Source: Roseobacter ponti | GTDB lineage: Bacteria; Pseudomonadota; Alphaproteobacteria; Rhodobacterales; Rhodobacteraceae | Direction: 5' to 3' | NCBI RefSeq assembly: GCF_012932215.1 | Contig: NZ_CP048788.1 | Location: 2,852,001-2,916,000, forward strand | Length of the DNA: 64,000 nucleotides | Made by a program: the position numbers and the translations under genes | Notes under the pieces: model-generated | Database searches by the model: none | What the model saw: only the letters and a program-made list of their open reading frames with translations | Told to the model about the DNA's origin: nothing | Shown here: positions 4,879-9,101 of the stretch, piece after piece | Layout of the letters: the number at the start of each line of letters is the position of its first letter | How positions within the stretch are numbered: the stretch's first letter is position 1

Positions 4879-5064
4879 CGCACTCAGATCGACCTTTAAC
4901 CCACTGAATTATAGAAGGTTTCTGATTTCTCACCAGACTAACCTGGCGACATCCGGCAATGCCCATGGTCAGATGCACCTCAGCGACCCCTGAGACGTTA
5001 AATCTTTTTTCAAGACTGACGGGCTAACAGGGTGCAGTTTCAACAGTATCCGGGATTCTCACAA

Positions 5065-6219
5065 ATGTTCAGTTTAACGCGTATGTCAGCTTTCGCTGCA
5101 GCCCTTGTTGTGGCCGGCCCTCTCGCCGCCGGGCAGGGCGTCACAGACGATACCATCAATCTCGCCCAGGTCGCGGCCATGGACGGCCCCGCCGGCGCGC
5201 TGGGGACCGGCATGCGCCAGGGCATGATGGCTGCCTTTGAAGAAGCCAACCGTGCCGGTGGCATCAACGGACGTATGATTTCGCTGACCAGCATTGATGA
5301 CGGTTATGAGCCGGACCGCTCGATTACCGAAACGAGATCAGTCATCGGCAGCGGTAACTATCTGGCACTCGTCGGGCCCGTTGGCACGCCGACGACCAAA
5401 GCCACTCAGCCGATTGCCACCGAAGCAGGGATGCCCATGATCGCGCCTTTTACAGGTGCCGGATTTCTGCGTGCGCCTGAATTGTCAAACGTCGTCAATG
5501 TCCGCGCCACCTATGACGCAGAGACGCAGGCGTGGATTGATCATCTGGTCGATGTCGAAGGCCTGACCGACATCGCTATTCTTTATCAGGATGACGGTTT
5601 TGGCCGTGTCGGCCTGTCAGGTGTGACTAAGGCACTGGAAGCGCGGGGCATGTCTCTGGTTGCTGAAGGCAGCTATACCCGTAATACCGTCGCTGTAAAA
5701 TCGGCGCTTCTTGAAATCCGCAAGGCTAAACCGCAGGCCGTTGTCATGGTCGGAGCTTATAAGCCGCTGGCAGAATTCGTAAAACTTTCGCGCAAGATGA
5801 AAATGGATGTGACCTTTGTGACGATCTCTTTCGTCGGCTCAAAGGCACTGGCGGCCGAACTGGGTGCGGATGGTGACGGCGTGATCATCAGTCAGGTAGT
5901 CCCCCAGCCCTGGGACAGTAACCTGCCTGTAGTCGCAGAATACCAGGCCGCTCTGACAGCCCTCGACGGCACAGCCGAACCGGGCTTTGTTTCGCTTGAA
6001 GGTTATGTTGCCGGTCGCCTGACGGTCGAAGGTTTGCGCAAAGCCGGTCGGGATCTCACCCGGGAGTCCTTCATGGCAGCGATGAGTTCTCTTGGGACCG
6101 TGGACATGGGTGGAATGGTTATGACGTTCGGCCCGGGTGACAATCAGGGTTCTGACGACGTCTTTCTCACGCGCATTGAGGCGGACGGCTCGTTCACCGC
6201 AATGCGCCCCGGCAGCTGA
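5065..6219 (+). CDS. Periplasmic ligand-binding protein, Leu/Ile/Val-binding (type I) family
   Basis: A 384-residue ABC-type substrate-binding protein of the branched-chain amino acid receptor fold. A signal peptide (residues 1-22, ending near AAG) is followed by GVTDDTINLAQ and NRAGGINGRMISL, typical of LivJ/AmiC-like proteins, and by GPVGTPTTKA at a ligand-contact loop. No permease or ATPase genes are adjacent; instead a chemoreceptor gene follows after 98 bases. This suggests the protein presents a ligand to the receptor rather than feeding a transporter (inference). The ATG at 5065 begins a standard signal peptide; a GTG at 5032 is an alternative. Ligand unknown. Confidence 0.85.
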   Translation: MFSLTRMSAFAAALVVAGPLAAGQGVTDDTINLAQVAAMDGPAGALGTGMRQGMMAAFEEANRAGGINGRMISLTSIDDGYEPDRSITETRSVIGSGNYLALVGPVGTPTTKATQPIATEAGMPMIAPFTGAGFLRAPELSNVVNVRATYDAETQAWIDHLVDVEGLTDIAILYQDDGFGRVGLSGVTKALEARGMSLVAEGSYTRNTVAVKSALLEIRKAKPQAVVMVGAYKPLAEFVKLSRKMKMDVTFVTISFVGSKALAAELGADGDGVIISQVVPQPWDSNLPVVAEYQAALTALDGTAEPGFVSLEGYVAGRLTVEGLRKAGRDLTRESFMAAMSSLGTVDMGGMVMTFGPGDNQGSDDVFLTRIEADGSFTAMRPGS

Positions 6220-6234
6220 CAAGAACTATCTCCG

Positions 6235-6258
6235 GGTGCCCGCTGAACTGCGGGCACC
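6235..6258 (+). other. Perfect hairpin between binding-protein and chemoreceptor genes
   Basis: Arms GGTGCCCGC (6235-6243) and GCGGGCACC (6250-6258) pair perfectly over 9 bases with a TGAACT loop. The following sequence has no U-run, so it may partly terminate or protect the 3' end of the binding-protein message and lower expression of the receptor downstream. It sits 15 bases after the stop codon. Confidence 0.5.
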
Positions 6259-6317
6259 TGAACAGCTTTACCGACTGAAGCGGTCAGAGCGTCAGAACAG
6301 ATTTAACTGAGGTCAAA

Positions 6318-9101
6318 ATGCGCAGCACTCTTTCAGATTTTTTTGGTTCGGTTCTGGTCAGACTGCTTCTGATTTTCGGTTCACTGGCTGCGATGACGGC
6401 GGCGGCAATCGTGATCGGCTGGATGGTGTTTCAGTCTATTGCGACGAACATGGCTGTTCTGTCAGAAGAACGCCTGCCCGAACTGCGTGACAGCGCCGGG
6501 GTCGTCTCGGTAACTGACCGGCTGCGTGCTGTTCTGTCCGATATTCTGATCGCGTCTGAGCCAGAAGATCTGGATAAGCTTGCGTTCAAAACGTCGCTCA
6601 TCCTCGAAGACATCCGAACAGCGGCAGAGGCCTTCGGGTCCGAGCAGCAGACTGCGCTGACAGGCAGGATCGACAGGGTTGCAGCGGCGCTTAAAACGCT
6701 CACGGTCGCGCGGGGGGAAGAATTCCGCAGTGCCGAAGGGGTCGCCACCGCTGTGCAATCCGCGCTGGAACTGGCAAATGAAGCGACGGCACTTCTGACC
6801 ACTGCAACTGATGACGCCTATTTTGACCTGGTGATCGGAGGGGAAAATACGATCAGCAGCATCGACGCCACTCTGACGCAACTCATTGAGAAAGACTTTG
6901 TGATTTTTCAGGCAGCTCTGGGCGCACGTTCAGAAGTTAATCTGTTGTCCGGTATTGCGCTGAGTATCCTCCAGACGCGCGACGCAGCCATGATGACCAT
7001 TCTGCAGGATCTGGGAAGTGCCGCATCAGAGCGCCTGAGCATCTTTGCCGCACAGATTGACGACGCCGGTACCATGCCGGAACTTACCGGAACACTGACG
7101 GCGTCCAATGATTTTTTCAGCAATATAATTAAATCTCGCGGGCGTGGTGTTGGAACCGCTGAGACCCTGTCGCAACGTCAGAGTGTGGATGCTGCACTTT
7201 CGTCGGCCCTCGACAGTCTTTACTTCGATTTTGTGATTAACAGCGAGTCTGCAAAGGAAGAAAATGCGTCAGCGATACAAGCGCTGATGGACGACCAGGT
7301 TACCCAGATCAGGGATCAGGCTGCCGTAGATGCCGCAACCAAGTCATTTTTCGCTGCGGCGATGCAATCAGCACTGGCCAGAGATCCCTATGAACTGAGC
7401 CTCAGGGAGGCAGAATTGCAGTCCGCAGGTCAGCGCCTCACAGAAGCTAAATCGAAGGTCAGCCCTGATATTGCAGTACACCTCGATGCTATTCTCTCAG
7501 TTGCTGATCCCGGAACCGGTATATCAGCGATTCGTGCATCCGCATTTGATGCGCAAAGAAATGCTGCGGAAGCAACGACCGCCGCCGCCGCGACCGTACG
7601 TGACATCGCGGTTGCCGTCAGCGAATTCGCGAGCGCGTCGCAAACGCAGATTGAGCTTGCGGCAGACCGGCTGAACGGTGAAGTTTCCAACGCCCGGAAG
7701 CGCATGCAACAGATCGGATTGCTCAGCCTGCTGATTGTACTGGCTGCACCGGTTTTCGTATGGCTTATGGTGACGAGACCTCTGAACCGGGTGACCGTCA
7801 TTACTGAACGGCTCGCTGCCGGTGACCTTTCAGAAATCGTCGGCACTGATCGTTACAGGGGCGAGATCGGGAAACTGACGAGCGCTCTTCAGGTTTTTCG
7901 TGAAGGATCGCTTGAACGTCAGCGGATGCAGGAAGAGGAAAAGGCGCGCCAGACAGAACTGATAGAAGCGGAGCGGGAGTCAGAAAAGCTGAAACGCGAC
8001 GCGGAGATCGCCGAACAAAAGGCGAAAGAACGGCGCGAGGCAGAAGAGCGCGAACGGGAAGAAAAGGAGCGTGCGCGCGAGGAAAAGCTTCGCCGTGCGA
8101 CAGAAGAAGAGCGCGAGGCGCGAGCCCAAGAGCAGGAAGTTGTCGTCTCTCAACTCGCGTCCAGCCTCAAAAGCCTCTCCGTCGGAGATCTTACGCACAC
8201 AATCGCAACCGAATTTCCGGGTGAGTATGAAACCTTGAGGCAGGACTACAATGAAGCGGTGGGCAATCTTGCGGATCTCATCGGACGCATTGGACTGAGC
8301 GCTGAAGTGATCGATTCCAGCAGTGCGGAAATTGCCGTCTCGTCTCTGGATCTGTCCCGCCGCACAGAAAACTCTGCCGCAACACTGGAGGAAACTGCTG
8401 CGGCCCTCAGTCAGATGACCAGCAGTGTTTCTTCCGCAGCGGAAGGCGCGTCCGATGCGTCTTCAACGGTTGAAGCCGTAAAACGCGATACGGAAGCGAG
8501 CCGCACAGTTATGCAGGATGCTGTTTCAGCGATGAGCGAAATCGAAGAATCTTCCCGCGATATTTCCAAGATTGTCGAAGTTATCGATTCAATCGCATTT
8601 CAAACCAATCTGCTCGCGCTCAACGCCGGTGTGGAAGCGGCGCGTGCCGGAGAAGCAGGTCGCGGTTTTGCAGTAGTTGCGTCTGAGGTTCGCATACTGG
8701 CTCACCGGTGTTCAGAGGCGGCTCTTCAGATCGGCACGCTAATCAGCCAGTCAACCGATCATGTCGAGAAAGGCGTTTCACTGATTGACCAGACCAACCG
8801 GGCCCTCTCCGCGATTCTGGAAGGCATAACAAACGTCTCAAAGAATGTCTCCGAAATAGCGGTTTCTGCAAAAGAACAGTCGGGCGGTATCGGGGAGATC
8901 AACACAGCCGTCGAACAGCTGGATCAGACAACTCAGCAAAACGCGGCCATGTTTGAAGAAACCACCGCGGCAAGCCAGTCCCTTACTGAAGAAGCCGGAA
9001 AACTCGCCCGCATTGTGTCATCCTTCCGAATCGCCGGTGCATCGGACGTACCGGTCGAACCGAAGGACACGGGTGAATTCGATCAGTCCTCTGCCGCCTG
9101 A
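6318..9101 (+). CDS. Methyl-accepting chemotaxis protein with long periplasmic sensor
   Basis: A 927-residue inner-membrane chemoreceptor. Order of parts: transmembrane helix 1 (about 13-37), a roughly 425-residue all-helical periplasmic region, transmembrane helix 2 (466-486), HAMP (487-540), an extremely charged Arg/Glu/Lys helix (535-608), a second HAMP-like unit (610-660), and the MCP signalling hairpin with its conserved tip ([20 protein letters not shown] at 761-780) that contacts CheA and CheW. The periplasmic part holds two similar segments (DAYFDLVI near 167 and SLYFDFVI near 300), suggesting an internal duplication. The gene follows a solitary binding-protein gene, a likely ligand partner. 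No C-terminal CheR-docking pentapeptide is evident. Confidence 0.92.

Follow-up and report, generated by a model that had tools for sequence, protein, structure and literature searches.

Introduction

Several chemoreceptors of Escherichia coli sense ligands that a periplasmic binding protein presents to them, as in the pairings of MBP with Tar, RBP and GBP with Trg, DPP with Tap, and LsrB with Tsr. These carriers also serve transporters, and the sensor of Tar is a single four-helix bundle. In the TorT-TorS system for TMAO sensing in E. coli and Vibrio, the genes of a binding protein and of a membrane receptor, which has a helical sensor and a kinase output, are neighbors. The complexes of TorT and TorS have been crystallized both with TMAO and without ligand, according to the titles of the structure entries. 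Passages of one paper (PMC6829864) state that binding proteins can stimulate each of the four E. coli receptors that have a periplasmic domain, and that for phosphate in Pseudomonas aeruginosa the binding protein PstS interacts with the chemoreceptor CtpL and also with the PstABC transporter. In the open literature, which leaves most subscription papers outside its scope, we found no description of a chemoreceptor that has a TorS-like sensor and a binding protein as its partner.

Here we describe such a pair from Roseobacter ponti, encoded in a stretch of 64,000 nucleotides of contig NZ_CP048788.1 (hereafter the window; Table 1). We consider it probable that the two proteins form an indirect-sensing module resembling TorT-TorS, with a LivJ-family carrier, a chemotaxis output and a sensor enlarged by a duplicated helical module.

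Results

Organization of the Locus

As the original prediction had it, the binding protein gene lies just upstream of a gene for a chemoreceptor with a very large periplasmic region: both are on the + strand, separated by 98 nt, and the region between the two hydrophobic segments of the receptor spans about 431 residues. The pair is thus co-directional, whereas torT and torS are divergent. We place the start of the binding protein at the ATG at 5065; a GTG upstream, at 5032, is a possible alternative.

Table 1. Features of the binding protein–chemoreceptor locus (positions are those of the window)
Feature	Position	Strand	Basis
Solitary periplasmic binding protein, PF13458 (Peripla_BP_6), 384 aa	5065..6219	+	Profile match, AlphaFold2 model
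Likely signal peptide of binding protein	5065..5133	+	Hydropathy; low model confidence at residues 10-20
GC-rich hairpin, 11-bp stem, no T run, in intergenic gap	6233..6260	+	
Methyl-accepting chemotaxis protein (MCP), 927 aa	6318..9101	+	Pfam domains
Transmembrane segment 1, receptor aa 16-34	6363..6419	+	Hydropathy
All-helical periplasmic sensor, aa 38-465	6429..7712	+	Model pLDDT 90.8; VIA-align
Sensor repeat unit 1, aa 152-262, with D165-x-A-x-F169	6771..7103	+	hhalign
Sensor repeat unit 2, aa 286-396, with D299 and F303	7173..7505	+	hhalign
Transmembrane segment 2, receptor aa 466-484	7713..7769	+	Hydropathy
HAMP domain, receptor aa 484-529	7767..7904	+	PF00672
Second HAMP-like segment (HAMP_2), aa 613-648	8154..8261	+	PF18947, E 1e-6
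MCP signalling domain (MCPsignal), aa 720-871	8475..8930	+	PF00015, E 1.1e-46

Hairpins such as the one in the R. ponti gap are common in related pairs. When the 65 pairs that remained after setting aside 6 of 76 with overlapping genes and 5 with gaps of at most 11 nt were examined together with R. ponti, a stem of at least 7 bp was present in 43 of the 66 intergenic gaps (all longer than 20 nt), as against 14.1 expected from composition shuffles.

The Pair Is Conserved among Close Relatives of the Binding Protein

Conservation of the pair across genomes had been set beforehand as a test of the original prediction. Among the best-scoring 80 of 562 relatives of the binding protein, kept from named genomes, a receptor with the same kind of sensor lies directly downstream in 76 loci, a pairing far from chance. 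The training set of the profiles behind this count comprised 68 of these 80 loci (59 in alignment A6 and 9 in A4); of the 12 loci outside the training, 4 lack the receptor and the other 8 have one that scores 320-454 bits with the better-matching profile. A single-sequence search with the R. ponti sensor alone recovered the pairing in 58 of these best 80 of 562 loci. The 80 include near-copies and contigs drawn twice (for example L143/L197 and L148/L051), so that the counts are not independent events. An MCP signalling domain was found in 72 of the 76 downstream receptors; three of the four exceptions (L104, L150 and L153) are truncated at the end of a contig, and the fourth (L139) is a histidine kinase.

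The surrounding genes are not conserved. Those that flank the pair in R. ponti recur in only 2 of the best 80 of 562 loci, and no other family of neighbors (open reading frames of at least 150 aa, with more than 35% identity over more than 60% of the shorter chain) was present in more than 6 of 92 loci. We had considered gene neighbors as a clue to the ligand and rejected them, as nothing recurs widely.

The persistence of this gene pair across many related species suggests that the binding protein probably hands a chemical signal to the receptor. Could the receptor instead bind a small molecule itself, the binding protein being a neighbor with an unrelated task? Among 24 loci whose receptor has a similar sensor, eight lack an adjacent relative of the binding protein; one of the eight is cut by a contig end, and the test used phmmer with the R. 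ponti binding protein, a query that also misses the other PF13458 proteins of the genome, so that a remote PF13458 neighbor could be overlooked. Among the fold matches of the sensor, moreover, are PilJ and the ligand-binding domain of McpS, the latter in structures with bound succinate or malate. Direct sensing is nonetheless very improbable in our estimation, given that the pairing holds in 76 of the best 80 of 562 loci without other shared context, that it extends to kinase outputs, and that the two functions are fused in one chain in one genome (see below).

The four loci without the receptor, of the best 80 of 562, form together with three further rows (one of them a copy) a single nested clade in a quick tree of the binding protein, and members of this clade mostly stand beside a PBP_like_2-OmpA protein. 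The pairing weakens at the phylum level: of 23 further loci found in a phylum search, the sensor is downstream in 4, in one of them weakly. Within the family the pair is accessory, with the receptor in 23 and the binding protein in 27 of 295 genomes; the only other genome searched from the genus lacks it. The module occurs in Roseobacteraceae, Paracoccaceae, Rhodovibrionaceae, Stappiaceae and others.

The Binding Protein Has the LivJ Fold and No LivJ-Like Pocket

The N-terminus of the binding protein is hydrophobic, as is typical of a signal peptide, and the protein matches Peripla_BP_6 with an E value of 1.2e-58 (199.9 bits, compared with a curated cut-off of 31.7). Its AlphaFold2 model (pLDDT 88.1) has the class-I binding-protein fold, matching 4kv7, 3lop and entries for LivJ and LivK; the nearest solved structure is 4kv7 (36% identity, TM 0.83). 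The protein had been called Leu/Ile/Val-type, and it does share its Pfam family and fold with LivJ and LivK of E. coli. Its identity to both is 19%, however, and it differs at three residues of the LivJ pocket, Thr102, Tyr202 and Glu226, which become Gly131 (38 of 38 rows), Ala231 (35 of 38) and Ser255 (38 of 38) in a mapping that is approximate at this identity. As a control, we inspected seven other PF13458 proteins of the genome: Glu226 is kept in none and Thr102 in one, and the pocket test therefore says only that the protein is not LivJ-like. Leu, Ile or Val as the ligand is not supported.

TorT, in turn, is not detected by the profile of the binding protein and shows 17% identity to it in an alignment; the carrier was not recognized as a relative of TorT.

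No PF02653 Permease Is Left without a Binding Protein

The claim that the binding protein has no transporter genes held up. The first 20 kb of the window encode no LivH-, LivM- or LivG-like protein, and the nearest PF02653 permeases in the whole genome are more than 210 kb from the gene. A transporter elsewhere had been named as what would speak against a dedicated carrier. We rejected an orphan PF02653 permease as such a partner: all 13 PF02653 permease loci in the genome have a binding protein of their own, and no orphan permease of this family is left. LivH/LivM-like proteins lie near 2 of the best 80 of 562 related loci, versus 7 of 10 other PF13458 loci in the R. ponti genome. In L148 (the same DNA as L051), the pair is immediately preceded by a liv operon that has a binding protein of its own.

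These results bear on a dual role, in which the carrier would, like MBP in E. coli, supply both the chemoreceptor and a transporter, here one already equipped with another binding protein. The E. coli locus indeed has two binding proteins, LivJ and LivK, for one LivHMGF set, and the L148 arrangement would suit such sharing. With no LivH/LivM-like protein near 78 of the best 80 of 562 loci and no orphan PF02653 permease, an argument that does not cover sharing of an occupied permease, we regard dual use as quite unlikely. Our preferred reading, a carrier devoted to signaling, would set R. ponti apart from the E. coli pairings and from PstS-CtpL, which likewise join a carrier to a chemoreceptor and in which the carrier has a transporter partner.

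The Modeled Sensor Resembles TorS and Contains a Duplicated Module

The receptor is an MCP by its PF00015 and HAMP domains, and the genome has two adjacent frames with CheW domains, one of them as large as CheA. The long sensor could not be placed by comparing sequences directly. Pfam gave nothing convincing for the sensor alone: 4HB_MCP_1 was below the cut-off, and TorS_sensor_domain (PF21689) had no match in the sensor at E 10 and none in the genome at E 1. A phmmer search against PDB sequences yielded only matches at E 0.3 or worse, and a profile of 33 long sensors matched a designed bundle, apolipoproteins and the like and did not match E. coli TorS. A profile of 19 mixed sensors matched mainly HAMP regions and no TorS.

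The predicted structure, all-helical in the periplasm, was more informative. Its best match by VIA-align, a method by which helical models without clear relatives reach best Z scores near 14, was TorS 3i9w (Z 16.5; 265 of 270 residues; 3.5 Å), with TorS 3o1i_A at Z 16.4. Next came 8f7n, which we take to be McpZ of Sinorhizobium meliloti (Z 15.3; 319 residues aligned), a chemoreceptor that likewise has a long helical periplasmic region, of three stacked modules, and superposes on the model with an rmsd of 9.2 Å. The first match that is not a receptor sensor had Z 13.8 over 144 residues. Foldseek was weaker (3o1h_A, E 8.6e-3). The model thus superposes on solved TorS sensors over the greater part of their length. 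Related receptors beside the same binding protein match the Pfam TorS_sensor_domain or solved TorS, and when 20 proteins encoded near such binding proteins were scanned, 7 exceeded the cut-off for this domain. The R. ponti sensor is linked to TorS through these intermediates and through its fold.

At about 431 residues, as against 275 positions in the Pfam model, the sensor owes its length to duplication of a module (hydropathy-based sensor lengths of relatives are less secure, some rows looking misread, with an inner helix taken for a membrane segment). Two units of the sensor were aligned by hhalign at 99.0% (E 3.6e-18); reversed and shuffled controls gave at most 0.7%, other registers up to 87.4%. 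In unit 2, D299 is present in 60 of 60 rows of alignment A6 and F303 in 58 of 60. The large sensor is best read as a TorS-type bundle to which duplication of a helical module has added length.

Outputs Are Exchanged

The output beside this family of binding proteins varies. It is mostly an MCP, as in R. ponti and in difference from the kinase of TorS, and sometimes a histidine kinase (L139, L188, L190, L192, L194, L260 and L261); that of L139 has a TorS domain. In L195, from one genome, MCP signalling and a PF13458 binding protein are fused in one chain.

Discussion

The idea that the binding protein is the receptor's ligand carrier gains support from the pairing in 76 of the best 80 of 562 loci and from the occupancy of all 13 permease loci. 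The model offered for it, MBP acting on Tar, captures the partnership of carrier and receptor and is less apt than TorT-TorS: the sensor model resembles TorS and McpZ, and the carrier looks dedicated to signaling. We propose that the binding protein, free in the periplasm, would close on a small molecule, probably an attractant, and that the closed form would dock on the helical sensor. Docking would shift the membrane-spanning helices and so, by way of the HAMP domains and the MCP hairpin, alter the activity of CheA. The mode would be that of TorT on TorS, except that chemotaxis replaces the two-component output and a PF13458 carrier replaces TorT.

Docking need not require ligand, since TorT-TorS complexes have been solved in both states. 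The ligand-free binding protein might hold the receptor in one state, which ligand would change or release. The sequence offers no way of telling this from docking induced by ligand, and we judge the ligand-free reading unlikely. Somewhat less unlikely, though still doubtful, is a broader view of the module we propose: that a subfamily of the LivJ fold left transport to become a plug-in carrier for TorS-like sensors, the duplicated module serving as a second docking site. If so, the outputs of the carrier would be interchangeable (chemotaxis, histidine kinase, perhaps diguanylate cyclase), and a single chemoreceptor chain might take input from two carrier molecules.

For many chemoreceptors no ligand is known, and screening isolated sensors will miss it wherever a loaded binding protein is the real stimulus. 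The module described here names both partners, carrier and receptor, so that ligand screening can start directly, and it links the TorT-TorS mechanism to chemotaxis.

A Binding Protein and a Chemoreceptor Kept Side by Side

The coordinates of the two genes and of the other features discussed here are collected in the table. The window's binding protein is 97% identical to its counterpart in a metagenome-assembled genome labelled Roseobacter sp. The chemoreceptor has a membrane segment at about residues 16-34, some 431 periplasmic residues, a second membrane segment at about 466-484 and a HAMP domain, followed by a charged stretch, a second HAMP-like segment and the MCP signalling domain. The genome has five MCP-signal matches and carries paired CheW-domain frames, one of CheA size.

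Features of the pair, its surroundings and a fused relative
Feature	Position	Description
Window	2852001-2916000	of a 3,861,689-base contig
DUF1194 genes (PF06707)	378-1804	two in tandem
Binding protein	5065-6219	384 aa; PF13458; N-terminal hydrophobic segment
Hairpin	6233-6260	gap between the two genes; strong, GC-rich, 11-bp stem, without a T run
Chemoreceptor	6318-9101	927 aa; begins 98 bases downstream of the binding-protein gene, same strand
Fused chain in L195, a relative's locus	L195:6140-8263 (-)	708 aa, single chain; MCP signalling domain 165-328, PF13458 domain 352-694

We investigated the conservation of the pair. A scan of named genomes with an alignment yielded 562 relatives of the binding protein, and at 76 of the best 80 of these 562 a receptor with such a sensor lay on the same strand and started at most 150 nt past the end of the binding-protein gene. 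An MCP signalling domain was found in 72 of the 76 receptors, and the window's sensor, used alone as a single-sequence query, was recognised at 58 of the 80 loci. The nine window genes flanking the pair were found at only two of the 80 loci, those of the pair's two closest relatives, and no other neighbour family was present at more than six of 92 loci. That the pair is kept together in otherwise unrelated surroundings argues that the two genes very likely act together. It also supports the original prediction that the binding protein would be the chemoreceptor's ligand carrier, as do the ties to signalling outputs described below.

Searches of 295 genomes of the family gave matches to the periplasmic region in 23; at 24 fetched receptor loci a relative of the binding protein was directly upstream in 16 and absent in eight, one of which ends at a contig edge. 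The binding-protein profile found 29 places in 27 genomes, with a sensor-type gene directly downstream at 23 (the window's own counted), and 17 genomes were common to both lists, versus 2.1 expected (23 x 27 / 295). At the level of the class, 32 of 385 genomes matched, 30 of the 38 matches came with loci, and the sensor was downstream at 23 of 29 given loci (the window's excluded). At the level of the phylum, 55 of 398 genomes matched, and the sensor was downstream at four of 23 further given loci (weakly in L255).

The gap between the genes tends to hold a hairpin: stems of 7 bp or more, with G-U pairs allowed, occurred in 43 of 66 such gaps, versus 14.1 expected from composition shuffles. 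The stems are similar in many related loci; their sequence letters differ. Such a hairpin could keep more binding-protein than receptor message.

Absence of a Dedicated PF02653 Permease

The binding protein had been described as lacking transporter genes, and this was borne out: it lies more than 210 kb from any locus of the PF02653 permease family. The genome has 11 PF13458 matches and 25 PF02653 matches, the latter collapsing by position to 13 loci, at which the partner is a PF13458 protein (seven), a Bmp protein (three) or a PF13407 protein (three). Our counts cover PF02653 and LivH/LivM, and all 13 PF02653 loci have a binding protein of their own; a less likely possibility is that the window's binding protein shares an already occupied permease or uses one of another family. 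PF13458 matches near 433480 and 3397993 likewise have no adjoining PF02653 permease. As judged by phmmer with E. coli LivH/LivM, a permease is present at seven of the genome's ten other PF13458 loci versus two of the 80 relatives of the window's locus, one of these two being L097 (24.6 bits). The other is L148, the stretch also numbered L051, where the pair is immediately preceded by a liv-type operon that includes a binding protein of its own.

A Long, Probably TorS-like Sensor

As judged by sequence comparison, a duplicated module accounts for the extra length of the sensor. Residues 152-262 and 286-396 of the receptor align at 99.0% (E 3.6e-18), whereas reversed or column-shuffled controls stay at or below 0.7%. 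Alternative registers of that profile, of which some overlap unit 2, reach as high as 87.4%. A D..F motif recurs in both units: in unit 1, 53 of 60 rows keep D165 and 54 keep F169; in unit 2, all 60 keep D299 and 58 keep F303.

A model of the sensor built from 60 sequences is all-helical (mean pLDDT 90.8). Its top VIA-align match is the TorS sensor domain (3i9w; Z 16.5, 265 of 270 residues, 3.5 A), and the second is the chemoreceptor McpZ (8f7n; Z 15.3, 319 residues, yet 9.2 A). Outside receptor sensors, the highest-ranked entry is alpha-catenin (Z 13.8, 144 residues), and, because helical bundles reach a Z near 14 by chance according to VIA-align's own note, the fold match by itself is suggestive of a TorS-like sensor. 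In Foldseek the best match was McpZ (E 2.2e-5), with TorS-TorT entries in places four to seven (E about 0.01).

Relatives provide a bridge in sequence from the long sensors to TorS. Of 20 proteins examined next to such binding proteins, seven exceeded the cut-off of PF21689 (TorS_sensor_domain): five are among the nine receptors of alignment A4, with sensors of about 300 residues, and two are long sensors (L098, L154), whose match is confined to the initial ~110 of the model's 275 positions. The A4 profile matched solved TorS at 2.4e-13, E. coli TorS at 85 bits and the long sensors with 99.9% probability, membrane and HAMP parts being included in the last alignment. PF21689 did not match the window's own receptor sequence, nor did the long-sensor profile match TorS.

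The Ligand

Branched-chain amino acids did not find support as the ligand: Thr102, Tyr202 and Glu226 of LivJ align with Gly, Ala and Ser in the binding-protein family. However, identity in this alignment is just 19%, and the genome's other PF13458 proteins likewise differ at these positions. The titles of the nearest solved relatives, 4kv7 and 3lop, name no ligand. Many residues are invariant across 38 members, a hint that the family may bind one conserved ligand class.

Other Partners and Outputs

The receptor is absent at four of the 80 loci. Their binding proteins and three further rows (together L138, L143, L146, L156, L193, L197 and L198, L143 and L197 being the same stretch) group in a quick tree as a single clade (support 100) within those linked to chemoreceptors. 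The gene alongside encodes a PBP_like_2-OmpA protein in L138, L156, L193 and L198 and a relative of it in L143 and L197, that is, in six of the seven. Thus, one lineage seems to have swapped its partner.

Other members adjoin histidine kinases. That in L139 has a TorS_sensor_domain; those in L188, L190, L192 and L194 match the A4 sensor profile at 174-219 bits and gave no PF21689 match at E 0.001. Upstream of the L188 pair lies a response regulator that carries a SpoIIE phosphatase domain (Pfam), with relatives, by similarity, in the other three. The L195 chain, which the sensor profiles do not match and whose hydropathy exceeds 1.25 in no window, may be a cytoplasmic chemoreceptor that uses its binding-protein domain as the sensor. 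On the evidence of these kinases and this fusion, and of the L260, L261 and L271 proteins below, the binding-protein family is tied to signalling independently of the window.

Wider stretches around 18 of the loci that are distant or lack the pair contained MCPs (L269, L270), kinases whose two membrane segments are separated by ~330 residues (L260, L261; not recognised by the sensor profiles, in a search where they are L232 and L233) and a GGDEF protein that matches the sensor weakly (L271; 26.8 bits). In L257 and L274, whose genomes (8.0 and 7.0 Mb) belong to a single genus, the binding-protein gene is divergent from one for a CHASE-GGDEF-EAL protein. An M20 peptidase gene, a possible clue to the ligand, lies near or beside the binding-protein gene in distant relatives L267, L268 and L272. 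Nothing informative was seen among the genes scanned in the rest of the 18. Conversely, receptors with a similar sensor and no adjoining relative of the window's binding protein lie near DctP of TRAP operons (L059, L060) or a PF13407 protein (L055), a lead pointing to possible alternative carriers for sensors of this type.

Finally, we note that binding-protein-mediated chemotaxis is well known (PMC6829864), that TorT-TorS is known from solved structures, and that PMC6381276 includes TorS in its list of structures matching the sensor of a nitrate receptor. Our searches of open-access papers turned up no chemoreceptor in which a TorS-like or trimodular sensor is paired with a dedicated LivJ-family carrier. 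In light of these related systems we judge the module to be a variant on an established theme: the general principle is already known, and what would be new, in contrast to TorT-TorS and known binding-protein-mediated chemotaxis, is the pairing of a chemoreceptor bearing a putative TorS-like sensor with a dedicated carrier of the LivJ family.
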